A DNA stretch of 64,000 nucleotides from Salminus brasiliensis (lineage: Eukaryota > Chordata > Actinopteri > Characiformes > Bryconidae): the NCBI RefSeq assembly GCF_030463535.1, contig NC_132878.1:88408355-88472354 (forward strand), written 5' to 3'. Below are positions 15,816 to 62,483 of this stretch, piece after piece (position 1 is the stretch's first letter; each line of letters begins with the position of its first letter). The position numbers and the translations under genes were made by a program. Under the pieces are notes generated by a model. It was not told the DNA's origin, did no database searches, and was given only the letters and a program-made list of their open reading frames with translations.

Positions 15816-18640
15816 CTCATATTAAAATACTATACCTGTTACATTCTAACAATACATGAATATTTACATTTCAGCAAATTCCCATGAGCCTCCAGTGTGT
15901 ATTTAGAGTCACCAGTGTTTAGTTCCTTACAGAGAAAATGTGTAAAATCACTGTGTAAACAGCTTTGATATGCCAAATGTGGCATATAGACATTAGGTTG
16001 AAAAATGCTGGAATTTTTCTTTTAACCTTTTTTTGAACCTCCATCCTGAAATCAGACCGAAATAGATCTAAAGTATGACTGCACTGTGCTCAGATCAAAG
16101 AAAACTACCTAAAACTTTACAGTGTTAACCTCATAGCTCGTAATAAGACTTTTTTCTGCATAAGATGCCTCTTCCTATAGTACCATTCAAAAGCTTGGAA
16201 TCACTGTTCAAATGATTGTAATCAACGTTTTCAATAAAAAAAACATTTGGTTGCAGGTAAACCTATAAAATAAGCTGTAATATGCTCTTTCTGTGCAGTT
16301 CCACAGATTTAAAGCAAATTACAATGTTAAAAAATGAATCAATAAACAAAATGCATCCATAATAATGAGAGACTGTAGATGATTCTAAATTCACTATGAA
16401 ATCTGTAGAACATCTAAAACAATGTCTGTTTGCTTCAAAGTGATGATTGCATTTGGAGGCAGATAACTTGACATATAGTAATTCTAATATGATAAGTGCA
16501 TCACGTGGTGCTCAATAGTAGTCTTAGGACATGGTAGTCATCATTACTTTGCTTTACAGTTATTTATCTTTTGAATGTATTCTGGAAATGCTTTTTCTTA
16601 TTCAAAAGCACATTATTCTCACTACATTTTGACCATCAGTTAATACTTTGGTTCCAGCTGAACGGTAGCAAACTATAAACTTTTAAGTAAGCCCTCGTCA
16701 CATACATACACTCACATTATGTTTAAACCTGAGATCATTCTGGAAGATATTACATTAGAGAAACTTGTTGAAAGATTGTGTGCCTACAGATACTTTTTTT
16801 TGACATGCTTTGAATCTGGCAGTTGTTCTTAAAAAATAGAAATGCCCTAATATGACTTTTGCATTGACTTCCATTAAAGGTTAAGGTATTCTCTTTTGGA
16901 AATGTTGCCTTTTTCAAGATGAAGAAGTAAAATCTGGGGCTAGACCACACAGTCATGCAAAAAAATATATAAATAAATAAATAAAAGCAAATCTTGATGA
17001 TGATTGATAAATTCACACACTCAGCCTAACTTTTTTTTATCTCTGTGCATCACAGCAAACATCGCTACTGTATTAAGATAAATATAACGAGTGATGATAT
17101 TAAATACTCACCTATAGGTTCCACTAAAGTTTAAGTACTTTTATTGAGTACTTTTAGTACATTATTGCCTGTTTTTAGCACATTTATGATGCATACCAAT
17201 GAAACATTTTAGCTTGGAAAGTGATAAATAAACAAGACATAAATTGTGTCCTAAGACTGCTTTTGAGCTTTATATCATTTATCATTTTAGAATTCCCAGT
17301 TATTTCTAACATACTGTAAATATTAAGTAAAATATTCTTAAAAATACCTTCTCTGTTTATCATTTTTAAAATCTACACTATAGAAGTTATTCATATGTAC
17401 AAAAACACAAAGCTAAATACTAGAATGAGTGATTCCAGACTTTTGAAAGGTAGTGTACACCTTTTGTATCACATTTCTGATTTACGATCTGTCCTTTGCT
17501 GTCATTTTTTGTGTGTTTTCAAACTGAAATATGTGAATGTTAAAACTGAACGCTCTTCAGCCTTCATTCAGGTCCGTACTAAACTGGATAAACTGCAGCG
17601 ATCGTAAACATATGGATTAGCTCAGGTCCTGTTTGTGAATTTGTCTTTTCAGTTGTTTTGACCATCTTTGTTTTGTGTGTAATTTATTATTTTTTATGAT
17701 GTCTTTATAATAGAAACTATTGCAGACATTTAAACCAGGATCATTTCAGCCACAGATACCACTAAGAAGAGCCAGTTTCTGCTCTGTTTGCTGCCTCATC
17801 AGTTGCCTTTTAATTCATAGCCATGCTGGGTTCATTTAGGAGGATTACTTCATGCAGTTGCTTGAATTTTCCCTTTCATTTTGAGGAGCCATATTTTAGA
17901 GTGAGGTGGAAATCCACTCACCGCTTGGGCATTCTGATTTAAAGTGCTTTTCTAATCACATTCATTGACCATATAATTTACATATCAGCCATACAAAATC
18001 CACCACTATGAAAAAATGGACATTTCAGTTTTCTGCACTGCCTTAAAAACAGCACTAACACATTTGAGTCTGTCAGGAAAGCCTTTTTGCGAGTTGCAAG
18101 GATGAGCTTAGAGGTGGGTTAGGTTAAAGGTATAGTATAGTTCAACCAGGCTAATTATACTAAAGTGGTTTACAGATATAGACAGTGAGTAGTTAAAACT
18201 TCAGCATGCTTCTTCAGAAAAGCTTTGATAAGCTGGTCTAGGCACATGTAAGGAGTAGTATGAACAGTTATATGGTATAAAAACATAACCTGAGCAGCTT
18301 AAACATGGATCTGTTCATAGTGAGACTCCGACTGTGTACACTGTGAAGGTCCAGCTAGCCCGGCCGCAGTGTTGCTTCTGTCTGTGCTTTTGTGCTTCAC
18401 TCTGTTTAAACTTGAAGTCTAGAAGGCTCACATTGTGTATTGTATAGGAACCATTTTTGCTTCATTAATCTTCCTTTGTCTGAACGGCCTATCAGAAAGA
18501 CTATGGTTCACTCTCCCCATGTAAAGGGTTCCATCTTTTAGAACATGTGTTCATGGTTCGCACTGTTTGGTTAAACTAGCTTTTTAAAGGCCACGGCACA
18601 ACAGCACAGTATTCCCCAGCAAACCTCAACATCCTACTGT
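15816..18640. other. AT-rich 3' UTR or intergenic sequence
   Basis: Possible rundc3b polyadenylation hexamers AATAAA occur at about 16232, 16340, 16970 and 17225, but none can be chosen. No further exon or clear transposon was recognised. Confidence 0.4.
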
Positions 18641-20200
18641 TCCACAATAAGAGCGTCCTAGAAATAGAATTGTGGAACATTCTAGAACTGACTGGAGAAA
18701 ATTCTACTGGGAGAACATTTTACTGGGAGAACATACTACGACAATGTGGAATTAATAGAACACTCTACAATATGGAGAATATTCTGCAATATAAGAACAT
18801 CCTGCAACAGTTCTCGATCTATCTAGCACAGTAGAAATGTGAGAACATTGTAGAACATTGCAAATGGGGGAACATTTCTAGAACAGTATGTTTGTAGACA
18901 GCATTGCACAACAGTGGGCTCTTTCTAGTGCAGTAGAAATGTGAGTACATTCTGTGTACTGGGTACTGGATCATTCTAAAACAGTGTTACTGGGAGATCA
19001 TTCTAGAACAGTGTTACTGGGAGATAATTCTAGAACAGTGTTACTGGGAGAGCATTCTAGAACAGTGTAAGTTGGAGAACATTCTAGAACATTGTTACTG
19101 GGAGAGCATTCTAGAACAGTGTAAGTGGGAGAGCATTCTAGAACATTGTTACTGGGAGAGCATTCTAGAACAGTGTAAGTTGGAGAACATTCTAGAACAT
19201 TGTTACTGGGAGAGCATTCTAGAACAGTGTAAGTGGGAGAGCATTCTAGAACATTGTTACTAGGAGATCATTCTAGAACAGTGTTACTTTGAGATCATTC
19301 TAGAACAGTGTAAGTGGGAGATCATTCTAGAACAGTGTTACTGGGAGATCATTCCAGAACAGTGTTACTAAGAGAGCGTTCCAGAACAGTGTTACTGGGA
19401 GATCATTCTAAAACAGTGTAAGTGGGAGATACTTCTAGAACAGTGTTACTGGGAGATACTTCTAAAACAGTGTAAGTGGGAGATCATTCTAGAACAGTGT
19501 TACTGGTAGATACTTCTAAAACAGTGTAAGTGGGAGAACATTCTAGAACAGTGTTACTGGGAGAACATTCTAGAACAGTGTTACTGGGAGATACTTCTAA
19601 AACAGTGTAAGTGGGAGAACATTCTAGAACAGTGTTACTGGGAGAGCATTCTAGAACAGTGTAAGTGGGAGAGCATTCTAGAACAGTGTAACTGGGAGAT
19701 CATTCTAGAACAGTGTTACTGGGAGAACATTCTAGACCAGTGTTACTGGGAGAGCATTCTAGACCAGTGTTACTGGGAGAGCATTCTAGAACAGTGTTAC
19801 TGGGAGAGCATTCTAGACCAGTGTTACTGGGAGAGCATTCTAGAACAGTGTTACTGGGAGAGCATTCTAGAACAGTGTAAGTTGGAGAACATTCTAGAAC
19901 AGTGTTACTTTGAGATCATTCTAGAACAGTGTAAGTGGGAGAGCATTCTAGAACAGTGTAAGTTGGAGAACATTCTAGAACAGTGTTACTTTGAGATCAT
20001 TCTAGAACAGTGTAAGTGGGAGATCATTCTAGAACAGTGTAAGTGGGAGATCATTCCAGAACAGTGTTACTGTGAGAGCATTCTAGAACAGTGTTAGTAG
20101 AAGGGCATTCTAGAACAGTACGTGGGAGAACATTGTAGAACAATGCAAATGGGGGAGCATTTCTAGAACAGTGTGAATGGGTGAAATATTCTAGTCCTGG
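18641..20200. repeat. 27-bp satellite rich in heat-shock-element cores
   Basis: From about 18960 the sequence is over 40 head-to-tail 27-bp units, built from ATTCTAGAACAGTGT plus TACTGGGAGAGC or AAGTGGGAGATC. Units at 18641-18960 and 20100-20200 are decayed. Most units keep TTCTAGAA. The word GAACATTCTAGAA (three alternating GAA/TTC sites) begins at 18675, 19077, 19185, 19536, 19563, 19617, 19887 and 19968. The period is divisible by three, so peptide-like frames (WESILEQCY repeats) arise without being genes. The array lies between the 3' ends of rundc3b and slc25a40. Confidence 0.95.
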
Positions 20201-22480
20201 TCTCTCAGCAGTCACGCAGGTATGGCTCATCATGCAGGTGTTCGGGGTTGTTGGTGTTTGCTGGGTTGATGAGTTCTGATTAGCTCTGAAGCTTTATCCA
20301 TCCCTAACATCCACTAACAGAAAGCTCCCTTTATGTTGCCTGGGTTTGTGATTAATAACCTGAAAGGTATTTTAGGAAGCAGGATTTTTCACTTAGTGGC
20401 ACATCACTGGCCTAAAGTCCAAAATATGAGAGCAAATTCCCACCAGGTAGAGGAGAATTTCTATTTATTTATTGTTTTTTTTGTTTGCACACAAGATATA
20501 CAACATATCTCTTAAATGTTGACTAATCTTACTCAATATCTCAAAATAATTACATAATATGTTAAAATAATTACTTGTTTTCCTGATGTTTTTTGTTCTT
20601 TTGTTTGTTATATGTTTTTGTATATATTTATAAAAATGTATATTGACATAATGTATCAAAATCTGGACTTCTTTTTTTCTTAGACTTTGACTTAGTATCT
20701 TAAAATAATGACTCAATTTGACACAATTTGACTTGCTATCTAAAATTACACAAAATAACAGCACACATAATAATTTACTTATCATTTTGAGATACTCGAT
20801 CAAATTTCAAAGTAGATCCAAATGTCAAAGAAACGGGTTTCCACACTAAACTACACTATCAGGAAAGGTATGAGATGCCTTCCTTCTCCTGCTTAGAGCC
20901 ACAACAGCCTTGTATTATTTAAATGATTTTTTAAAAATTGTTATTTAATTATTCTTAATTAATATTTGTATTTTTTTTTGCACCACAAACTAAATAGGCC
21001 TGCTGTATTTCATTACCATACCAGGACCAGCTGCCCAAAAGCATGTCAGTGGTTAGATCATGTTGAATGGTAGAGAGAGAGTGTTCAGTCCATTTTTAAG
21101 AATTTTGTTCATGCTATGCTGCTTTTGGGCAACCCAGCCCTGGTAGGTTAAAGCCACAATCAGGGAAGTATAAATCTGTGTTACTCCATGTCTTTTTTTC
21201 CCCATGTCTGTGCCAATACTTTGTTTACAATCAGGACACTGGCCTAGCTCTTTACACCCTCCTCTCAATGTTGTATGAGAAGCACGGCATGTGATAGCAG
21301 CATGTTGGATGTGTTCCAATGTCTTTTTTATTGTCTTCTTGTCTTTCTTGTACGTTTCTGTATGTCAGGACAATGTCTTGTTCACTCCCTCGTTTTTTAA
21401 AATGACTTTTCGAGTTCATCCAAACTCAGCATTGCCTCCAGCGCCCTGCTGATGCGTTCGTGTTCTCAGTGTTTCTGTCTGCCCCTGACTTCCTTTGTGT
21501 TTGAACTATGTATGACCTTCTCTCAAGCATGATGAGGAACAGCTGAGCTACCTGCGCCAACACTGAGCTTCTGATGTACCATAGCACAGGGCCGAGGGCT
21601 CTAAAAAGGGTGGGGCTCTTTGTGTTATTAAGCAACGGAAAGTGTCATTAATTTGTGGCAGGCCGAGCTTACAGAAATGTGATTAAGCAACGCAGCCGAG
21701 CATGTTGTTAAATGGTTTGGTCATCTCTCGTGTACCTCATGCTGCTTCTGTCTGAATTAGTTCTGCATTTCAAGGCACGAAAAGGCTGGGAAGGTCAGAA
21801 CTTGATGTACTTTGCTGTCTTACATTGAATGTATACTGGTTGCCTTGCCCACAAGAGGCATTAAAGGACACTTTCACATAAAATTCATATTTTACATATT
21901 TGCCTTGATCATATGTCATTGATATGCTAAAAGAAAGGCATTCAGAATTAGGAAATGTAACTCAAGTGATGCCTGATGATTATGATTGCCGTTCTTGCCG
22001 AGCGGTCCTGTTGGTCACTTGATTTCAAATAGGGGAGAGTGGGGCACAGGGTAAAACAACTTCGAGGGTTCTTTAGTAAAGGCTGTAGTTTTTGTATAGG
22101 ACCATGACAATTCAAAGATCCATTTGCTGTTCTTTGCCTGGTTAATGGGTATGTTGTATTAAAAAAAGTACTCTTTATATACTCAAAAAGGGTCAAATTA
22201 GAGACCCCTGTAATAACTAATGTCATCATAAGTGGCTTTTGAGTTGCGTGTTGTGAATTTTTCTAAGCTTTGACTTGTTGGCTGTAATAGAGCACAGTTC
22301 TGAATCATTTGAATAATAATAATAGTAATGTTAGAACACCCCAGGCTAGTACAGCCTACTCACAGTGGAGTTAGTTGTACACAGTGTTTCAACTAAGCCT
22401 TCCAGTGAAAACAAGAGGAGGGGTGAGGTGTCTGGGGAACAATCCCACCTCTTCACCAAATACAGCAGCAGTTCATGTCT
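20201..22480. other. Intergenic, AT-rich
   Basis: 20480-20800 is AT-rich with repeated TATCTTAAAATAAT-type words and a meaningless - strand open frame. No gene is supported in the stretch. Confidence 0.45.
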
Positions 22481-24230: not shown

Positions 24231-24500
24231 GCACAGGGACACCCAGGTGGTCCAGATTTTTGCTCCAACCCCACTCACAACACACCATATAGAGGAAAAC
24301 TGATAGGGAATTCAAGGTATGGTTCTTGCACAGAACTCTAAAGTGGACAAAGTATGTGTTTCTACTAAAGTGGCCAATACATAGAAATACAATAATAGAA
24401 TAATAATAGAAATTGTTTCTAATAAAGTGGCCACTGAGAAGCAATACAAGGTAGGTGTTCCTAATAAAGTGGCCAGTCAGATGAAATACAGGGTAGGAGT
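24231..24500. repeat. Short tandem block with AATAAAGTGGCCA units
   Basis: Three to four diverged units end in CTAATAAAGTGGCCA (at about 24365, 24422 and 24465). The - strand frame with repeated GHFIRNTY arises from this repeat. The left part (CACAGGGACACCCAGGTGG) resembles a hAT-type element edge. Confidence 0.6.
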
Positions 24501-24596
24501 TGCTTTGAATGTATTTGCTTGTGTCGTAATTAAAGTTATTTGATATTTTTGCTTTAGGACAAGACAAGATTTACACAAGCCGCAAGCCAAACTGTC

Positions 24597-25412: not shown

Positions 25413-28400
25413 CTAAACGAGAAAGAGATAGAAAGGGATGAGTATGACGTAGAGGTTATGGCTATGAGTCATGCTGGAATAGGGTTGTTTAATCTTATGA
25501 TGGCAAAGCATCAGCGCTGTATTGTCTCATAATACTCATTATACTGAATGTAGTTCTGTTCTGTTTGGGTGCAGTAGTGACATCTTGTGGTCAGTCCAGA
25601 AAATGACAGATTTGACGGATTATTTGAATATTGCCTTTCACATTGTTTATTTCATGAGTAATTATGGACCAATTGGAAAAAGTACTTGGAGTCTACATCT
25701 TAACATTAAACGTATTATTTTTATTTATTTATTTTATTCAGATTTTCGCAGGGTATCTCGTTTCTCACATCATGTGTGGCTTAGCTGAACAGTGGCATGG
25801 TGTGTCCAATGTGAGGCAGTGTTTAAGACATGGCTTTGTGTTGCTGCTGTGTGTTCAAACATTTACCTGCAAAGAGGCCTCTGAAGCCATTCTCTCCCAC
25901 TATTCGCTTCATCACATCGTAGGTTAATGAAGAGGCTTGTGGTGACACTATAGAAACAAAAGGGCTAAATCACTAAGCAGTCATATTTAGTGCATCATGA
26001 AATCTCAAATATGGGCACCCTGCACTTGGTAGCACCCTTGCTAGTATAAATCAAAGCTTGTAAACTGAGTCTTTCAGTTCTTGTTCAGAGGATTCTTCAC
26101 TGAAAAATCATCTAGCTCTGGGGGATTCTAGGGTCATGCCTGTGCCTCTGGCTGCAACACAAGCCCAAAACATGATCAATCCACCCCTGTGCTTAACAGT
26201 TGGAGAGGTGTTCTTTCCATGGCTTTCTACACCCTTTTTCTCCAAACATGTTTTTGCTGACTGTGATTTCCAAACATACATCAGGCTTCTGATGCACGTT
26301 GATGAATTCATGTCGCTCCAATGTCTCATAAAATCTTTCGTAGTCCTTCAGACCTCAACCTGACCTCCACCATTCCTGTAACTGTCATTACTTCATTACA
26401 TTACAAACTGAGGAAATATTACCATGGAACACATTGCTTTCTCCTCATAGCTTATAGCTACATATGCTTTGTGAGCATCAATAACTTTAATTTAAGAGTG
26501 ACTGTCCCAACAATCATCCTTTAAGCAGCTGCAGAGAGTATTTATAAGGGTGTAAAATTTGCATCATCTGAGAGATAAAGTTATCTGAGAGATAAAATCT
26601 GTTAGGATGGTCAAATATTCTTCTTTTTCATACTACAAAGTTGTACAAAATAAGCTATTAATAAATATTGCTTAAATGTTAAAAAGAAATAAAAAAATAA
26701 TAATTTTAACTTGAACATGCCTTTTGGAGTTCAGATCATCTTCTACTTACTTAACTATTTACACTTAATTTAATTTAATTTTGACCGGGTGCACAAAATT
26801 TTGCATGCCACTATATATCTGACTAACATTCCAAAACGATGTGCTGAACTGAGTTGAACTGGCACCTTCAAGAAGCTCTGGTGCCTTTTTATACTCCTAC
26901 TCAAGCTCAGGCTTATCTAGGAAAAGTAGCTGCCATGTATTCCTAAACCTATCAGAAAAGTCAGTCCTTTCACACACGCACTTATCCGGGCAATTATATG
27001 TGATTAACTGGAAAATTACAGGGACATTAACACAGTGACATCTAGATCAAAAGGTTGTGGGAGTGGATTTTGAACATGAGATGAAAGAGCTGCTGTTCAT
27101 TAATGCTGAGGATGTCACGCCTTGTTTAATGGGAATTTCATGGCAAGTATGAACAAGTGCATTCTGGTAAAAGTAAAAGTGCTGCATGTGTCAACAATGC
27201 AAAACCTGAATATTAGGGAAGAGTAACCCAATGATCTCATGAGTTTTACGTGTGGCAGGGGTTTTATTTTAGGAGTTTTTTTAAAACCTACGATTCTTAG
27301 CCTGCAGTTCTCCGAGTTCCACTTGTCTCCTGGTCTTAACCACATCGAATGGCAGTGTGACGACTGAAGCAATCTGAGTAGAAGATTGACACAACATTGT
27401 AACACACACACACACACACACACACACCAGTTTAATTCTTTGTTAATGTGCATGTTATTCAAAGATATTTAAACACTGTGATGTGAAAAACCTTAGAACT
27501 TTAGGTTGCTTGGCAACCATATCCTAATTACACAGATTAAGGGAATCATTTATTGTAATAATAAATAAAATAATACATATTTTTTAGCATTGATCTATTT
27601 TATCATTCTGCCTTTTGGGTCCATTTAATGAAAGCTTTCCATCTACCAAACAAATGGCACACAGTCATCCTCCAGTGACTGATATTAGAAAAGTATAAGT
27701 CACTTGAAGGTAAAACCAGGACAAGAGTTCTCAACTTTTTTGGGAAAATGTGGTGATGTGAGAAAAAGCAAAGCGGACTCACAGATCCAGACACTGCTCC
27801 TGCGATGAAGGTGATGGTGATGGTCGGGTCGCTGGACTTGTACTGACACAGCCAGGCTTTGCCTTTCTCATAGTTATACCAGTACAGTGCTGAAGACAAA
27901 GCCAGACTAGACAGGATGAGGAGGAGGAAACATGCTCCAAAAATACAATGATAAGGCAAGATATAACACAGGTACTGACATACTGTGCCAAACTGAAGCT
28001 TTCATTTTACTAAACATCCCATTCACTCACCAGTCCAATACAGAAACTGAGCGTGCTTTAAAACCATTGCTTTTACAATATTGTACAGTTGATGTGTTTT
28101 GTAAAAATGAATTATGACTGTTTTTAGTACATAAAACCACATAAATGCCATCAAATTAAAAAATATAAGAAAACTGCAGGATATGTGGTGTGTAAATCAT
28201 TGTGATGATCCACTGACTGTAACAGAAAGAAGAACATTGCTGCTGTTGATAATCCGAGCTCGGCACACTGTTAACTGCACAATGTAAGTTCAGTTAAGCA
28301 GGTAGGATAACATTTGAGAGCTGCGTGACTCTACATAATAAATCTAAGTCTTATTTGAGTACAAACCGGTAATATTCCTGTGCCACCTCAGTCCACATGC

Positions 28401-32095: not shown

Positions 32096-33094
32096 CATAT
32101 ACACATGTGTGTATATATACACATGTATATGTGTATGTGATTGGTGAAATGGTTTATCATGGAGAAAAATGTACAGATCTAATTTCTTCACAGTAATGGT
32201 GATAGGAACGAGGGGTCACAATGTCCACAATGCAAACACAGATATCTTTTAATTTACTACCCAAATCCACTAGTGAACCTACATGTGTCCTCTGACAGTG
32301 GTTGAATCAAAATAAAGCCAGAGAAGCATGTTTTCATTTTCTTTAGGTACTAGTTGCCTTTTCTGATGAATTCTCCTTTAAATGATGAAACCCTTCAGAC
32401 CAAAAAAGACATTTAAGCTAAAAATACAAACATATTTTTACCTTTAGGGAAAGGACTTATCTGCGCCTGGAGTCTGATTTTAATGACATCTAGAGGAGTT
32501 ACTGTAAAGAGAGAGAAAAGAGACATCATGCTCTCAGTGCATGTAGTACACATTTAAACAAGGATTGTGAATTTGAATAAACAGTGGCCAGCGGCAAGCG
32601 GCCTTCTCTCCACAATGTCTACGATTTATGCAGTCACATGGTCCTGTTTTATTTTACTTTAGACTGTAATGACACAACAGGGAACATTTATAGGAGCACT
32701 GGACAATGGATTTGATCTCTGGATATCAGTGAAAAACACCCACTCCCAAGACCTACAATGTCTTGTTATAGACTCCATTTACCACATATGTACAGAAAAA
32801 AAAATCACTGTTCTGCAGTCAAATCCTCAGGAACCCCCTAGCAGTTTAAATGTTCCACTATACCGGATCCCAGTACACCTGACTCAAGCACTCAACAACT
32901 AAATCCCTGGGAGTTCTGTGCTGGGAGCTGGAACACAGCAGAAATGTGTAGATTTATTCACTGTCTGATTTATTACAAATCACCCTTTGATACTTACCAA
33001 ATAATGATGTAAGTATAGCCCCAGAACAAGAGGAGATCATCTGCTGAAGCGGCGTTATACTGTCCGCAGCCGCCTGAGAACTTTGAGACGTCAT
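25276..33094 (-). CDS. slc25a40: Mitochondrial carrier SLC25A40 (glutathione transporter family), complete
   Basis: Ten coding exons, in transcript order: 33094-32998, 32501-32442, 31971-31865, 30920-30853, 29800-29676, 28635-28462, 27889-27783, 27373-27292, 25947-25867, 25412-25276 (TGA). They sum to 1038 bases, 345 residues, close to human length (338). SLC25A39/40 carry glutathione across the mitochondrial inner membrane. The three carrier signatures are present: PLDVIK (about 35-40), PLELIR (161-166) and PFDVVK (254-259). The loop at 54-69 holds four cysteines (55, 59, 67, 69) in [16 protein letters not shown]. This loop lies where SLC25A39 has its regulatory cysteines. Exon 2 of the gene starts at acceptor AAAAG before 33104; a noncoding first exon ends at 34544. 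The gene is head-to-head with dbf4 and convergent with rundc3b. SLC25A39 is the alternative, but the CFVY/GLMDH block and synteny favour SLC25A40. Confidence 0.93.
25867..25947 (-). CDS. slc25a40: slc25a40 exon 9 (coding)
   Basis: It encodes about residues 274-300, including [18 protein letters not shown]. The acceptor TTTCTATAG leaves two leading bases, which fixes the donor of the previous exon as GTAGGT rather than the GTTTTA four bases downstream. Confidence 0.88.
25990..26820 (-). mobile_element. Tc1/mariner transposase remnant in a slc25a40 intron
   Basis: A - strand frame at 26108-26329 contains [20 protein letters not shown], matching the Tc1 block VKHGGGSIMLWGCF. The end near 26790 (TGCACAAAATTTTGCATGCC) is a typical Tc1 terminal sequence. 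The reading frame is broken elsewhere. Confidence 0.75.
27292..27373 (-). CDS. slc25a40: slc25a40 exon 8 (third carrier signature)
   Basis: It encodes [20 protein letters not shown] then GELQAKN (247-273). The acceptor CTACTCAG follows a GT repeat (CA at 27404-27427 on +). Donor chosen by phase: AATC|GTAGGT. Confidence 0.9.
27404..27427. repeat. (CA)n microsatellite next to a splice acceptor
   Basis: Twelve CA repeats lie 31 bp upstream (in transcript sense a GU tract) of the exon 8 acceptor of slc25a40. Confidence 0.95.
27783..27889 (-). CDS. slc25a40: slc25a40 exon 7 (coding)
   Basis: It encodes residues 212-246: [16 protein letters not shown] through FIAGAVSGS. The acceptor is GTCTTCAG and the donor GTGAGT. 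Confidence 0.93.
28462..28635 (-). CDS. slc25a40: slc25a40 exon 6 (second carrier signature)
   Basis: It encodes residues 153-210, including [18 protein letters not shown] and [16 protein letters not shown]. The acceptor GTTGTAG follows a GT-rich tract. Confidence 0.94.
29190..29335 (-). mobile_element. MITE family A fragment, reverse orientation
   Basis: GGAGCAGTGGAACTGTGTTT, GGGGATGAGATGGG and CATCCTGACCTCACTAATGC are the complement of the family A interior seen at 9660-9800 and 45480-45640. Confidence 0.65.
29676..29800 (-). CDS. slc25a40: slc25a40 exon 5 (coding)
   Basis: It encodes residues 112-152: [20 protein letters not shown] to LLAGAIAR. The acceptor is TCTTGGCAG and the donor GTGACC. 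Confidence 0.94.
29900..30290. other. Intronic stretch, nothing recognised
   Basis: AT-rich intron sequence with no supported feature. Confidence 0.4.
30291..30470 (+). mobile_element. LINE 3'-end fragment
   Basis: CTTGAGATCACAATTTCGTT and GTGAATGACAATAAAGTCTC form the usual 3' end of a fish L2-like retrotransposon. No coding part remains. Confidence 0.55.
30853..30920 (-). CDS. slc25a40: slc25a40 exon 4 (coding)
   Basis: It encodes [20 protein letters not shown] then PT (89-110). The donor is the less common GTTAGT after ACACT; the split codon CT|A gives leucine 111. Confidence 0.92.
31002..31791. mobile_element. hAT-like nonautonomous element
   Basis: Perfect 12-bp terminal inverted repeats TAGAGATGCACC and GGTGCATCTCTA bound 790 bp. 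The flanking 8-mers GCTGTAAT and GTTGTGAC differ only by transitions, so they may be a decayed target duplication. No transposase frame is left. Confidence 0.75.
31865..31971 (-). CDS. slc25a40: slc25a40 exon 3 (cysteine loop)
   Basis: It encodes residues 54-88: [35 protein letters not shown]. The acceptor CCACACAG and donor GTGAGT are canonical. Confidence 0.94.
32003..32140. repeat. Compound (CA)/(TCTA)/(TA) microsatellite
   Basis: CA repeats run into TATC and TA repeats and then ACATGTGTGTATAT. It lies just upstream, in transcript sense, of slc25a40 exon 3. Confidence 0.95.
32442..32501 (-). CDS. slc25a40: slc25a40 exon 2 (first carrier signature)
   Basis: It encodes [20 protein letters not shown] (33-52) and the first base of glycine 53. 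Acceptor TCTTTACAG, donor GTAAAA. Confidence 0.94.
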
Positions 33095-54320: not shown

Positions 54321-57300
54321 TAACTTAAGACATTAAGGATCAAATGATGACAGTATCTATATTAAGCTTATTGTACTAAGGAGGTTGGAGTGGAGTAAAA
54401 TGTAAACCCTGTTAATACACTGTTTACTCCCCAGTCCTTAAACGGAAGCTGTGCTGTGAACACCACTCATTCTGAATGCACTGTTTCTCTGATGTCACGA
54501 GAACCAACCAGTTTATTTACTACATCCATCTATTCAGCTTCCGCACTTCAGCCCCGCCAATCCATACTGAAGTTCTCTGGGGTGTTTCAGCTCTGAGTGT
54601 CTGAAATGGATGTCTGTACAAAGAGTTTTTATTTTCTATAGTTCGCAGTAAATCATACTGTGTCCTAAACCACATCGGCAAGAATACGCAACTGTAAGCT
54701 CAAACCGAGCTGGATGAGGTTTAAGCGGATTGAGATAAGAGTGTGGGAACGTATTTACAGAAAAAAGATTTGGGGGACTACTGACATTGAGTGTTAGCAG
54801 GGTTGTGGCAGAAAGGAGGATTCTGTGATGTGGGACACAATATAAGGTCAGCATGCAAGAGGATGAGGCTGGAAGGAGCCATAAGACCAATGTTATAGTA
54901 CTGGACTTCACAACTAATGTTTGTCTAGAGGCTATCAAAAGGCATATGATAGTAGGCTTATTCACTGTGCCAGTATTACATTCATGCTCATTGCATGTTG
55001 TGGCACGTTTAGTCACAAAAATGTGCAGTGCAGTTTCTACTTTATTGACCCAGTGGAAACATCTGAAGAAAAGAAGATTGGAAGTGGTTGGTTTCTAGAA
55101 ACACGCATGCAGGTCCCTACTCCTGTGATCAATTCTAAAAAGAGTATATTATGTATTTCTGTTTCAGCCCCTTAAATTCCAGTCTTATTAATCAGTTCTT
55201 AATATTGAGACTTATTATTGATTAACTACTAAACTAAAGCCTATTTTAACTATTAGTTATTTTTTATGTGATTGCAGATGAGACTGTCCATATGTTTTAT
55301 AGTCTGATTGCAGAGTGAATGGCTTTCTGCAATTGCCTGAATCCAGAGCTTCATCAGTAATATTAGCCTTCTTCTAAAGTACCTCATGCTGATGAATAAC
55401 AATGCCTGTTAATAAACAAAGCCACGGGGGACTGAGGGTAGTCAGTGCCCACAGAATGAAAATTTGTGGAAAGCGTTAGGTTTTCTAATTAATTACTGGA
55501 CGTTTTTATGCTTCTCGCTTGCTTGCTAGTTTGCAGTAGGCTGATGGGGCGTTTGTGGTGGTTTCCCCTGCCAGGCTGGTCTACCTTGCATCACTTACAC
55601 TTGGTCACTTAATGCATCTTGAGTGTCAGGATGATATCTAGATAAGGCCAAGCCACATAAAAATGCAGGTGTGAACGCACCCATGCTGTATTTAAAACAG
55701 ATACAAATTCGATCTATAAAACCACTTCAGGAGGTGGGCTGAGACGCGCTGGAGCCACTTTAGCAATGTAAACATATCCGTATCCAAATCTCTCCAAGAT
55801 ACATTGGACAACCAAAACGCCTCCCAGTTCAACCAGTAATAATTGCTGCATAACAAGCAAATTTGCATATTTCATTGACTACTGAGTGTAAATACATGTG
55901 GCTAAAAGTCACATGAAATGACCAGGTGTAAACAGGATCATAGTTGTGTGCATGACAGCCCATAGCACAATATTCACCAAAATAGATGAGAAGGAATTTT
56001 GTTTTGAGAGCCAGCTAGCATTCCAGCTTGAGCAATATTAGCCTCCGCCCTGCGTCTTCCATAACTGTGGGAGTAATGCAGGGTCGGTTCGCACAGACAA
56101 AATGAAATGGGTTGTTTTTGAAATGCCTTTACTTCAACATCATTTAATCCGTTATTACAGTTCTTGCATCAAGACACTCCCAGATTTCCCCTCCCTGACA
56201 CCATCTTTAAGGGCTTCATGATGCTCACACTTTGTTGTTGCCTTTCAATAAAGATGCCAAATGATTTCAGTAAATCCTTGTCTTCTCCACCCATCGCTCA
56301 GTGTGATGCTAGCCTGTTGGCCGTTTGTTAATCTGGCACAATGACAGCAGAAAACATGGACAGTGCAACGTCTCTCAAAAGCCACCACAGGTCTAGCGTC
56401 TCTGCTACTTGGTTGCAGTATGATATGTGGCTCCGCCCTTCCCTGTAGGTTTCAAATGTGACAAAACAGCCCATTTTCAATCTCATTTTTCTCCTCTAAA
56501 CTGCCCAGTATTTAGCCCAATAGTTTGTTTCCCCTGTTCGTTTTTAAACCCTTACTCTGTAATATCATAAGAAGGCCTTCTGATTGACAGCCTTGGCCGG
56601 ATAAGACTGGGACAAACTGGGAATCCAGGGGGAAAATGCTCTGCTTCTGCGCTGTTAGAGCTCAATGAAGGCGGTCTGAGACGCACTTATTCTGGGAAAA
56701 GGGGGCAGGTCCATCAAATGAGTAGGTGTCTCTGGCTCTACCACTGGTCTCTACAGCACAGACTCTGGTTGCAAATTTGATGACATGGCAGGTAATTTTG
56801 GCTTCATTTCCATAGAAAGAAAGGAAATAGAACCCCAACATCCATGCTTTCTACGGTCAAAGATCTGACAAAACAGGAATGGACAGTTAGTGTTCCCCTC
56901 CAAGCATGTTGAGAGCAAGCATGTGCTAAGCTTCCCCCTCCCAGCTTGGTAGCTTTGTGTGCTGGTTGTTTGTGTTATGTATGTGTGATGAAAATGTTGG
57001 GGAGAATGGATTGCAAGTCAGTAAGAATTAGAAACAGAATTGGGGGCTTGATGTGGGGGAACCCTTAACACCATCCTTAGCACTCTAGGCTGTATGTTGC
57101 TATGAAAGAATCTGTGATTGTAGCCTTGTGTTCAAATGCATCTTTTTAATGGGTTTTTGAACATTAAGGTCAGCACATTTGGCAAGTTGTGCTGGACAGC
57201 ACTCGTGGGAGACCTATAGAGTGTGATCCCCCTTAAGGACCCCAACGTAACAAGTACCCACAAGCTGTATGAAAGAGAGTAAGAGGCAACAATCACAGTG

Positions 57301-58470: not shown

Positions 58471-61400
58471 GCCTACACTGCTAATGTTTACTAGTCTACA
58501 CTGCTAATGTTTACTAGTCTACACTGCTAATGTTTACTAGTCTACACTGCTAATGTTTACTAGTCTACACTTCTAATGTTTACTAGTCTACACTGCTAAT
58601 GTTTACTAGTCTACACTTCTAATGTTTACTAGTCTACACTGCTAATGTTTACTAGTCTACACTGCTAATGTTTACTAGCCTACACTGCTAATGTTTACTA
58701 GTCTACACTGCTAAAGTTTACTAGACTAAACTGCTAATGTTTACTAGTCTACACTGCTAAAGTTTACTAGACTAAACTGCTAATTGTTACTAGACTGAAC
58801 TGCTAAAGTTTACTAGACTAAACTGTTAATGTTTACTAGTCTACACTGCTAAAGTTTACTAGACTAAACTGTTAATGTTTACTAGTCTACACTGCTAAAG
58901 TTTACTAGACTAAACTGTTCATGTTTACTAGTCTACACTGCTGTTTACTAGTCTACACTTCTAATGTTTACTAGTCTACACTGCTAATGTTTACTAGTCT
59001 ACACTGCTAATGTTTACTAGTCTACACTTCTAATGTTTACTAGTCTACACTGCTAATGTTTACTAGTCTACACTGCTAAAGTTTACTAGACTAAACTGCT
59101 AATGTTTACTAGTCTACACTGCTAAAGTTTACTAGACTAAACTGCTAATTGTTACTAGACTGAACTGCTAAAGTTTACTAGACTAAACTGTTAATGTTTA
59201 CTAGTCTACACTGCTAAAGTTTACTAGACTAAACTGTTAATATTTACTAGTCTACACTGCTAAAGTTTACTAGACTAAACTGTTAATGTTTACTAGTCTA
59301 CACTGCTAATGTTTACTAGTCTACACTTCTAATGTTTACTAGTCTACACTGCTAATGTTTACTAGTCTACACTGCTAATGTTTACTAGCCTACACTGCTA
59401 ATGTTTACTAGTCTACACTGCTAAAGTTTACTAGACTAAACTGCTAATGTTTACTAGTCTACACTTCTAATGTTTACTAGTCTACACTGCTAATGTTTAC
59501 TAGTCTACACTTCTAATGTTTACTAGTCTACACTGCTAATGTTTACTAGTCTACACTGCTAATGTTTACTAGCCTACACTGCTAATGTTTACTAGTCTAC
59601 ACTGCTAAAGTTTACTAGACTGAACTGCTAATGTTTACTAGCCTACACTGCTAATGTTTACTAGTCTACACTTCTAATGTTTACTAGACTACACTGCTAA
59701 TGTTTACTAGTCTACACTGCTAAAGTTTACTAGACTAAACTGCTAATTGTTACTAGACTGAACTGCTAATGTTTACTAGCCTACACTGCTAATGTTTACT
59801 AGCCTACACTGCTAATGTTTACTAGTCTTAACTGCTAATGTTTACTAGTCTACACTGCTAAAGTTTACTAGACTAAACTGCTAATGTTTACTAGTCTACA
59901 CTGCTAATGTTTACTAGCCTACACTGCTAATGTTTACTAGTCTACACTGCTAAAGTTTACTAGACTAAACTGCTAATGTTTACTAGTCTACACTGCTAAA
60001 GTTTACTAGACTAAACTGCTAATTGTTACTAGACTGAACTGCTAATGTTTACTAGCCTACACTGCTAATGTTTACTAGTCTACACTTCTAATGTTTACTA
60101 GACTACACTGCTAATGTTTACTAGTCTACACTGCTAAAGTTTACTAGACTAAACTGCTAATTGTTACTAGACTGAACTGCTAATGTTTACTAGCCTGCAC
60201 TGCTAATGTTTACTAGACTACACTTCTAATGTTTACTAGACTACACTTCTAATGTTTACTAGCCTACACTTCTAATGTTTACTAGACTACACTTCTAATG
60301 TTTACTAGACTACACTGCTAATGTTCACTAACCTACACTGCTAATGTTTACTAGCCTACACTTCTAATGTTTACTAGACTAAACTGCTAATGTTTACTAG
60401 ACTACACTGCTAATGTTCACTAACCTACACTGCTAATGTTTACTAGCCTACACTTCTAATGTTTACTAGACTAAACTGCTAATGTTTACTAGACTAAACT
60501 GCTAATGTTCACTAACCTACACTTCTAATGTTAACTAGACTACACTTCTAATGTTTACTAGACTACACTTCTAATGTTTACTAGACTACACTGCTAATGT
60601 TCACTAACCTACACTGCTAATGTTTACTAGCCTACACTTCTAATGTTTACTAGCCTACACTTCTAATATTTACTAGACTAAACTGCTAATGTTTACTAGA
60701 CTAAACTGCTAATGTTCACTAACCTACACTGCTAATGTTCACTAACCTACACTTCTAATGTTTACTAGTCTACACTGCTAATGTTTACTAGTCTTAACTG
60801 CTAATGTTTACTAGTCTACACTGCTAATGTTTACTAGTCTACACTGCTAATGTTTACTAGACTACACTTCTAATGTTTACTAGACTACACTTCTAATGTT
60901 TACTAGCCTACACTTCTAATGTTTACTAGACTACACTGCTAATGTTCACTAACCTACACTGCTAATGTTCACTAACCTACACTGCTAATGTTTACTAGCC
61001 TACACTTCTAATGTTTACTAGACTAAACTGCTAATGTTCACTAACCTACACTGCTAATGTTCACTAACCTACACTGCTAATGTTCACTAACCTACACTGC
61101 TAATATTTACTAGACTAAACTGCTAATGTTCACTAACCTACACTGCTAATGTTCACTAACCTGCACTGCTATTATTTACTAGACTAAACTGCTAATATTT
61201 ACTAGACTAAACTGCTAATGTTTACTAGTCTACACTGCTAATGTTTACTAGACTAAACTGCTAATGTTTACTAGTCTACACTGCTAAAGTTTACTAGACT
61301 AAACTGCTAATGTTTACTAGACTAAACTGCTAATGTTTACTAGACTAAACTGCTAATGTTCACTAACCTACACTGCTAATGTTCACTAACCTACACTGCT

Positions 61401-62483
61401 AATATTTACTAGACTAAACTGCTAATATTTACTAGACTAAACTGCTAATGTTTACTAGTCTACACTGCTAATGTTCACTAACCTACACTGCTATTATTTA
61501 CTAGACTAAACTGCTAATATTTACTAGACTACACTGCTAATGTTTACTAGTCTACACTGCTAATGTTTACTAGTCTACACTGCTAATGTTTACTAGACTA
61601 AACTGCTAATGTTTACTAGTCTACACTGCTAATGTTTACTAGCCTGCACTGCTAATGTTTACTAGTCTACACTGCTCATGTTTACTAGCCTGCACTGCTA
61701 AGGTTTACTAGTCTAAACTGCTAATGTTTACTAGTCTACACTGCTAATGTTTACTAGTCTACACTGCTAATGTTTACTAGTCTACACTGCTAATATTTAC
61801 TAGTCTACACTGCTAATGTTCACTAACCTACACTGCTAAAGTTCACTAACCTACACTGCTAATATTTACTAGTCTACACTGCTAATGTTTACTAGTCTAC
61901 ACTGCTAATGTTTACTAGTCTACACTGCTAAAGTTTACTAGACTAATCTGTTAATATTTACTAGTCTACACTGCTAAAGTTTACTAGACTAAACTGTTAA
62001 TGTTTACTAGTCTACACTGCTAAAGTTTACTAGACTAAACTGCTAATGTTTACTAGTCTACACTGCTAATATTTACTAGTCTACACTGCTAATGTTTACT
62101 AGTCTACACTGCTAAAGTTTACTAGACTAAACTGTTAATATTTACTAGTCTACACTGCTAAAGTTTACTAGACTAAACTGTTAATGTTTACTAGTCTACA
62201 CTGCTAATATTTACTAGTCTACACTGCTAAAGTTTACTAGACTAAACTGTTAATATTTACTAGTCTACACTGCTAAAGTTTACTAGACTAAACTGTTAAT
62301 ATTTACTAGTCTACACTGCTAAAGTTTACTAGACTAAACTGTTAATGTTTACTAGTCTACACTGCTAAAGTTTACTAGACTAAACTGTTAATATTTACTA
62401 GTCTACACTGCTAAAGTTTACTAGACTAAACTGTTAATGTTTACTAGTCTACACTGCTAAAGTTTACTAGCCTGCTCTGCTCA
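58471..62483 (+). repeat. 23-bp satellite array with forkhead-site core
   Basis: About 174 head-to-tail 23-bp monomers fill 4 kb of adam22 intron 2. The main monomer is ACTGCTAATGTTTACT plus AGTCTAC and contains TGTTTAC and the palindrome ACTAGT. A second monomer, CTAAAGTTTACTAGAC plus TAAACTG, contains the inverted repeat AGTTTA-6-TAAACT. From about 61930 the two alternate as a 46-bp unit. A third variant has TTCACTAACC and clusters at 60310-61500. Length 23 is not divisible by three and stops are frequent, so the array is noncoding. Confidence 0.97.

Follow-up and report, generated by a model that had tools for sequence, protein, structure and literature searches.

Introduction

Transposons can carry heat-shock elements (HSEs), the sites bound by HSF1. 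The available text of Garrigues et al. (2019, PMC6927752) places 61.4% (11,527/18,766) of C. elegans HSEs in Caenorhabditis Helitrons and reports that HSF-1 occupancy rises on heat shock. Two further systems are described in the accessible parts of their sources: human satellite III (SatIII) of the nuclear stress bodies, a megabase-scale pericentric tandem repeat reported as a primary HSF1 target (PMC9032817), and Tetris of Drosophila virilis, an element with terminal inverted repeats (TIRs) that is said to have provided building blocks of an emerging satellite (PMC4079207). Here we describe an HSE-rich minisatellite array with a 27-bp unit from the fish Salminus brasiliensis. It lies in a 64-kb stretch of contig NC_132878.1, referred to as the window, whose numbering is used throughout. 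The array is one local copy of a dispersed minisatellite family and not a lone satellite. It probably arose by expansion of a minisatellite inside an old TIR DNA transposon that was non-autonomous and resembled a miniature inverted-repeat transposable element (MITE), and the HSE would have been inherited with the unit instead of being kept by selection.

As far as the available parts of these sources go, the closest precedent is the Caenorhabditis Helitrons (PMC6927752) and not SatIII. As with the Helitrons, a DNA transposon would here disperse clustered, tandem-like HSEs genome-wide. Unlike the Helitrons, the element has TIRs, its host is a fish and it is known from sequence alone; its share is also smaller, one word accounting for 12% of perfect three-site HSEs, although the two counts define an HSE differently. 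Like SatIII (PMC9032817), the array is a tandem repeat with HSE-like sequence. Unlike SatIII, it is about 1.2 kb long and is one of many dispersed arrays, linked to TIRs at several loci and read here from DNA only. The SatIII counterpart proposed in a first-pass annotation of the window is not supported. Judged by its size and by dispersal along the listed part of the assembly sequence C1, it is not a large pericentric block. With Tetris (PMC4079207) it shares the tie between a TIR element and satellite-like DNA; the element and the host are different.

Results

The array is rich in heat-shock elements

Tandem Repeats Finder (TRF) detected a period-27 array of 44.9 copies with 86% matches at 18972-20181, in agreement with the more than 40 units counted in the first-pass annotation. 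Wraparound alignment to the family consensus, GAGAACATTCTAGAACAGTGTGAATGGG, showed family units spanning 18650 to 20194. The perfect HSE word, GAACATTCTAGAA, has eight copies in the window, seven in the array and one in its decayed 5' flank, all within 18641-20200 as previously noted (Table 1). They are the only perfect GAA..TTC..GAA matches in the 64 kb, and each consists of the three alternating pentamers, GAAnnTTCnnGAA, of an HSF1 heat-shock element. The TTC..GAA..TTC pattern does not occur in the window. TTCTAGAA was found in 35 copies in 18641-20200 and once more at 55093.

Across the 42 in-register units, the middle TTC was intact in all and the second GAA in 34, while the first triplet was GAT in 18, GAG in 16 and GAA in 8; all three sites were perfect in seven. 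The array had been called one of perfect and near-perfect HSEs: near-perfect fits most units, and perfect applies to this minority. The shifts of the first triplet to GAG or GAT had also been read as a graded series of site strengths. The shifts themselves are present, but the gradation looks like ordinary drift and block duplication, because no unit column in the window varies more than the third base of the first GAA, and across arrays the HSE columns are no more conserved than their spacers (see below).

The expectation that the units would outscore shuffled monomers was borne out when HSEs were scored by pentamer matches rather than with a published HSF1 matrix. The family consensus matches 9/9 HSE bases, which was equalled by 26/50000 shuffled monomers (best nine-base match), and the window consensus matches 8/9, equalled by 376/50000. 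The seven perfect words of the array were equalled by 2/2000 column-permuted arrays. The HSE content of the array exceeds chance for a single pre-chosen motif; these tests are valid for one motif fixed in advance, and a reader could have recognised many others. HSF1 probably binds perfect and one-off units in vitro, since exactly this pattern serves as the consensus for fish Hsf1 sites in the available part of PMC6836667.

The array belongs to a dispersed minisatellite family

The first-pass annotation had proposed looking for the same repeat at other loci, and a search of the assembly (1,066,335,885 bases; 1.07 Gb) found it. GAACATTCTAGAA occurs 911+958 = 1869 times, compared to 19+11 = 30 when the word is reversed as a control. 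Over both strands, the perfect three-site HSEs, GAANNTTCNNGAA, amount to 7651+7409 = 15060, compared to 5766+5883 = 11649 for the reversed pattern. The single word GAACATTCTAGAA makes up 12.4% of these HSEs (1869/15060), and its count corresponds to 55% of the 3411 by which they exceed the control. We then sampled loci by GAACATTCTAGAA: the first 100 genome places listed, all on C1, gave 21 clusters beyond the window, of which 20 were taken. Same-family units were present at 16 of the 20 loci, 14 of them with at least four units; no array was found in this sample at L012, L013, L023 and L024. The family periods are mostly 26-30 bp, and both orientations occur within some loci. At L015, L019 and L020, family arrays lie oppositely oriented in one locus, which gives a foldback-like arrangement. 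Apart from scattered other repeats, similarity among the loci was mostly confined to the arrays, and a blastn comparison of their 600-bp flanks returned no more than scattered matches.

The rest of the unit is dispersed as well. The 13-base word GAACAGTGTGAAT, from the remainder of the unit outside the HSE, has 905+720 = 1625 copies compared to 11+12 for its reversed form, and a second non-HSE word, ACAGTGTGAATGG, has 304+310 compared to 27+10 for its control. With ACAGTGTGAATGG we picked an HSE-blind sample of 16 C1 loci from the listed places outside the earlier set; seven of the 16 were true arrays, and L029, a spurious GA-rich locus, was excluded. One array in this family, L042 (3621-4781), has about 40 units with the consensus GAGAACGCTGTAAAACAGTGTGAATGGG, which has neither the TTC nor the second GAA and represents an HSE-less subfamily that expanded. 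The L042 array serves as a natural HSE-less control. CATTCTAGAACAGTGTTACTGG had no match in the viral_contigs collection.

HSE bases are conserved no better than spacers

Conservation was measured on single units with at least 16/28 matching bases in the two samples, which were chosen in opposite ways (by the HSE word and by ACAGTGTGAATGG). L022 and L026, with fewer than four units, were left out. Wraparound alignment overstates the unit totals (843, and about 240 including L029) and lowers the identities, as some inter-array sequence is included (e.g. at L014). In the pooled 22 arrays (912 units), mean identity was 0.807 for the HSE columns, 0.805 for the four spacer columns and 0.783 for the other conserved columns. 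In the HSE-picked sample of 15 arrays and 718 units the corresponding values were 0.823, 0.820 and 0.771, and in the HSE-blind sample of 7 arrays and 194 units they were 0.773, 0.772 and 0.810, so that each sample favours the word used to pick it and the HSE columns exceed their own spacers by at most 0.004 in any sample. Base-matched random column sets, drawn without the hypervariable unit columns 26-28, reached the HSE value in 1533 (HSE-picked), 16190 (HSE-blind) and 5705 (pooled) of 20000 draws. The outcome was the same with a stricter unit cut-off of at least 18/28 (1048, 15557 and 4517 of 20000) and in a looser first version of the test (1756, 16844 and 6701). Perfect units numbered 129/718 in the HSE-picked and 21/194 in the HSE-blind sample.

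Among these 22 arrays and 912 units, HSE bases were not kept above both the spacers and the other unit bases. There is no sign of selection for HSF1 binding and the arrays look neutral at the HSE bases, because HSE and spacer identity are equal, the perfect word outnumbers the non-HSE word GAACAGTGTGAAT only slightly, the HSE-less L042 array expanded, and variation among the window units peaks at the third base of the first GAA. These same observations speak against a functional HSF1 platform, in which the arrays would be kept since HSF1 binds them on heat shock, driving noncoding transcription, regulating neighbours or sequestering HSF1. The perfect word does stand about 60-fold above its reversed control and supplies 1869 of the 15060 three-site HSEs, the TTC is intact in 42/42 window units, and in the available text on Caenorhabditis (PMC6927752) the Helitrons show that transposon-borne HSEs can be bound and lie near induced genes. 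The array would also lie past the 3' end of a putative carrier-like gene on the minus strand to its right and not at its promoter (see below), which counts against such a platform too, and we regard it as rather unlikely.

The unit may instead serve another DNA-binding factor, for example via AGAACA, which can be read directly from the family consensus twice, 4 bp apart. AGAACA is a steroid-receptor half-site. The first AGAACA is changed in most window units (GAA is kept in 8/42) and no factor is preferred for a known reason, so we consider this reading very improbable.

A TIR terminus adjoins arrays of the family at several loci

The two flanks of the window array were compared with both flanks of 16 other loci in both orientations. 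The upstream flank matched the upstream flank of L017 (0/300 shuffles, z 11.7) and the downstream flank matched the right flank of L022 (0/300 shuffles, z 7.6). A common terminus pointing inward was present at L021, L022 and L031. Used as a genome query, the L031 terminus identified four other places (L045, L046, L047 and L048). At three of the four, units lie directly inward of the terminus, as arrays at L046 and L047 and as a remnant at L045, and L046 has both inverted ends. The fourth, L048, carries paired ends, of which the right is weak (E 0.21), with no array in the 2.2 kb examined.

A 25-base terminus word with up to three mismatches gave 76+68 = 144 genome matches, compared to 0+0 for its reverse; the loci are fewer than the words. 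At least 15 of the matches lie in one tandem block on C27 and five in one C1 cluster. In the C27 block (G000:C27:25386880-25388559) the terminus occurs at least 15 times in tandem, in steps of about 30 bp or multiples, the end sequence itself having turned into a minisatellite. The first 81.1 Mb of C1 hold 11 terminus sites, four of which face an array word inward within 600 bp (binomial tail 1.5e-11). This test used 153 word positions, with some dense-cluster neighbours omitted and the cluster number unaffected. Three of the four sites had helped to define the terminus, so only one is new. Of 12 previously unseen one-mismatch terminus sites, five show, within 480 bp, a similarity to the unit that exceeds every one of 96 shuffles (maximum 30). 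At L057 and L058, single units stand beside the terminus; this suggests a unit native to the element, with the arrays as later expansions.

At the family level, dispersed copies have inverted terminal repeats in common, as in non-autonomous TIR DNA transposons (MITE-like). Helitrons have no terminal inverted repeats and are marked by TC...CTRR ends and a 3' hairpin; the TIRs found here do not fit that class, and no search was made for Helitron ends. TWA precedes the terminus at 9/12 sites (tallied by hand). A TWA target preference is the rule for PIF/Harbinger-type elements, and the TWA beside the terminus hints at PIF/Harbinger.

At the window array itself, the flanks form an imperfect inverted repeat (18615-18634 and 20246-20265). 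A MITE defined solely by a 20-nt inverted repeat of CCCAGCAAAC was dropped: 78/19802 random segment pairs score as high, and the core is found at 0/20 loci. The inverted-repeat idea was revived in corrected form, in which the array flanks share a longer, diverged terminus. The right TIR of the window scored E 0.2 in one terminus-profile search and was not among the matches with E<=1 in another; its outer limit (~20281) follows our own reading.

Several observations weigh against an origin of the arrays inside a TIR element. Seven of the 11 C1 termini are without an array word within 600 bp, and seven of the 12 previously unseen terminus sites show no unit within 480 bp. Among the 24 array loci, the terminus profile detects clear ends at five, six ends in total and each a training member, and its seventh row, L034 upstream with E 0.071, ranks behind the sole control match (L034, E 0.012, in 250,572 control bases). 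The right end of the window element is weak, and the exact core CCCAGCAAAC is absent from the 20 other loci. By inspection, no matching target-site duplication was found at L046, L048 or the window. On the side of selection, HSE columns exceed the other columns in the HSE-picked sample (0.823 vs 0.771), in the direction its ascertainment pushes, and the order is reversed in the HSE-blind sample (0.773 vs 0.810).

These gaps leave some room for a free minisatellite, whose arrays would have seeded loci themselves (e.g. as extrachromosomal circles), with a secondary link to TIRs, for instance because they inserted into a few elements or were captured by them. A recognisable terminus is missing at most of the 24 array loci, the flanks otherwise share little, and the oppositely oriented arrays within L015, L019 and L020 are consistent with such a history. 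The inward termini near arrays at independently found loci and the single units beside termini fit a unit native to the element, and a free minisatellite appears unlikely to us.

Genomic setting of the array

The features of the array and its putative host element are collected in Table 1. A stop-free frame of 195 codons on the plus strand (19510-20097) lies inside the array; it is most likely a by-product, because 27 is a multiple of three.

Table 1. Positions in the window of the minisatellite array, its perfect HSE words and the ends of its putative host element
Feature	Position	Strand	Evidence
Left TIR of host element, diverged (AAAGGCC...CCCAGCAAAC...)	18586..18634	+	Homology to L017 upstream flank (score 45, 0/300 shuffles); member of terminus alignment; inner part pairs with right end (20 nt, 85%)
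Decayed 5' array units, including one perfect HSE word at 18675	18650..18971	+	Wraparound alignment; word position
Perfect three-site HSE word, 5' flank copy	18675..18687	+	Word position
27-bp minisatellite, 44.9 copies; TTCnnGAA in 34/42 in-register units, perfect three-site HSE in 7/42	18972..20181	+	TRF, unit table, column counts
Perfect three-site HSE word	19077..19089	+	Further starts at 19185, 19536, 19563, 19617, 19887, 19968
Tail of final decayed unit (to 20194), then spacer up to right end	20182..20245	+	Wraparound alignment
Right TIR, strongly decayed	20246..20281	-	Inner 20 nt 85% complementary to left; outer part like family terminus; resembles L022 right flank (0/300 shuffles)

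To the right of the array, two short frames on the minus strand, 27284-27442 and 32416-32553, have weak Mito_carr matches (E 0.0011 and 0.00027) just under the Pfam cut-off, and both contain a PxDxxKxRxQ motif. We take them to fit slc25a40 or slc25a39. The slc25a40 named in the first-pass annotation as a neighbour is compatible with these frames, as is slc25a39. If both frames belong to one gene, the array lies beyond its 3' end and not at its promoter.

Other repeats were noted in the window and elsewhere. A second, larger array at 58473-62481 has a 23-bp unit in 174 copies with 88% matches and a strong GC skew (-0.345 at 60001-62000). A 42-bp repeat (TGTTCCTAATAAAGTGGCCA... and variants) is found in similar form in tandem at window 24414-24501, L009 547-1029 and L016 1-913. 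At G000:C1:1480420-1569847, a different perfect HSE word, GAACCTTCTGGAA, is repeated at intervals of mostly 3-4.5 kb across about 90 kb, like a tandem gene or segment array.

Discussion

The first-pass annotation of this locus is confirmed in its observation, and its interpretation is partly supported. In the history that we consider probable, a TIR element would have carried a unit of about 28 bp beside its ends, with a perfect three-site HSE in the unit consensus, and copies of the element would have spread through the genome, presumably by transposition. In many copies the unit may then have grown into tandem arrays via unequal exchange or slippage. Each array would drift into its own subfamily, the 27-bp one in the window among them, and drift would now be eroding the arrays. 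Judged from the motif, the better units should remain targets for HSF1 trimers in vitro. The array is probably silent for the most part in cells, any occupancy induced by heat being opportunistic at most.

A bolder possibility, which we hold at low confidence, is that the transposon family rewired part of the heat-shock response. Its minisatellites supply about 1/8 of the perfect three-site HSEs, and on heat the accessible ones might be bound by HSF1 and work as enhancers, or might form a dispersed sink for HSF1, by analogy with the Helitron HSEs of nematodes.

Dispersal of HSEs by transposons is already known from nematodes; what makes the present variant of interest, with its probable TIR element and internal-repeat expansion in a fish, is its genome-wide share. 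In the literature on HSE-bearing repeats in vertebrates and fish, we recognised no vertebrate transposon-borne HSE array among the matches listed; the sources covered this field in part, with most subscription journals outside, and this is not proof of absence. Four 15-base unit words had no match in the literature text searched.

In nematodes, HSE-carrying transposons are known to bring further genes into the heat-shock response. The family described here suggests that a different kind of element may supply a large share of a genome's strong HSE words, by local expansion of an internal repeat. Because the arrays look neutral at the HSE bases, they also caution against inferring function from motif density. 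Array copy number can shift fast, and the family would therefore offer a handle on whether HSE dosage differs between individuals and matters in heat.
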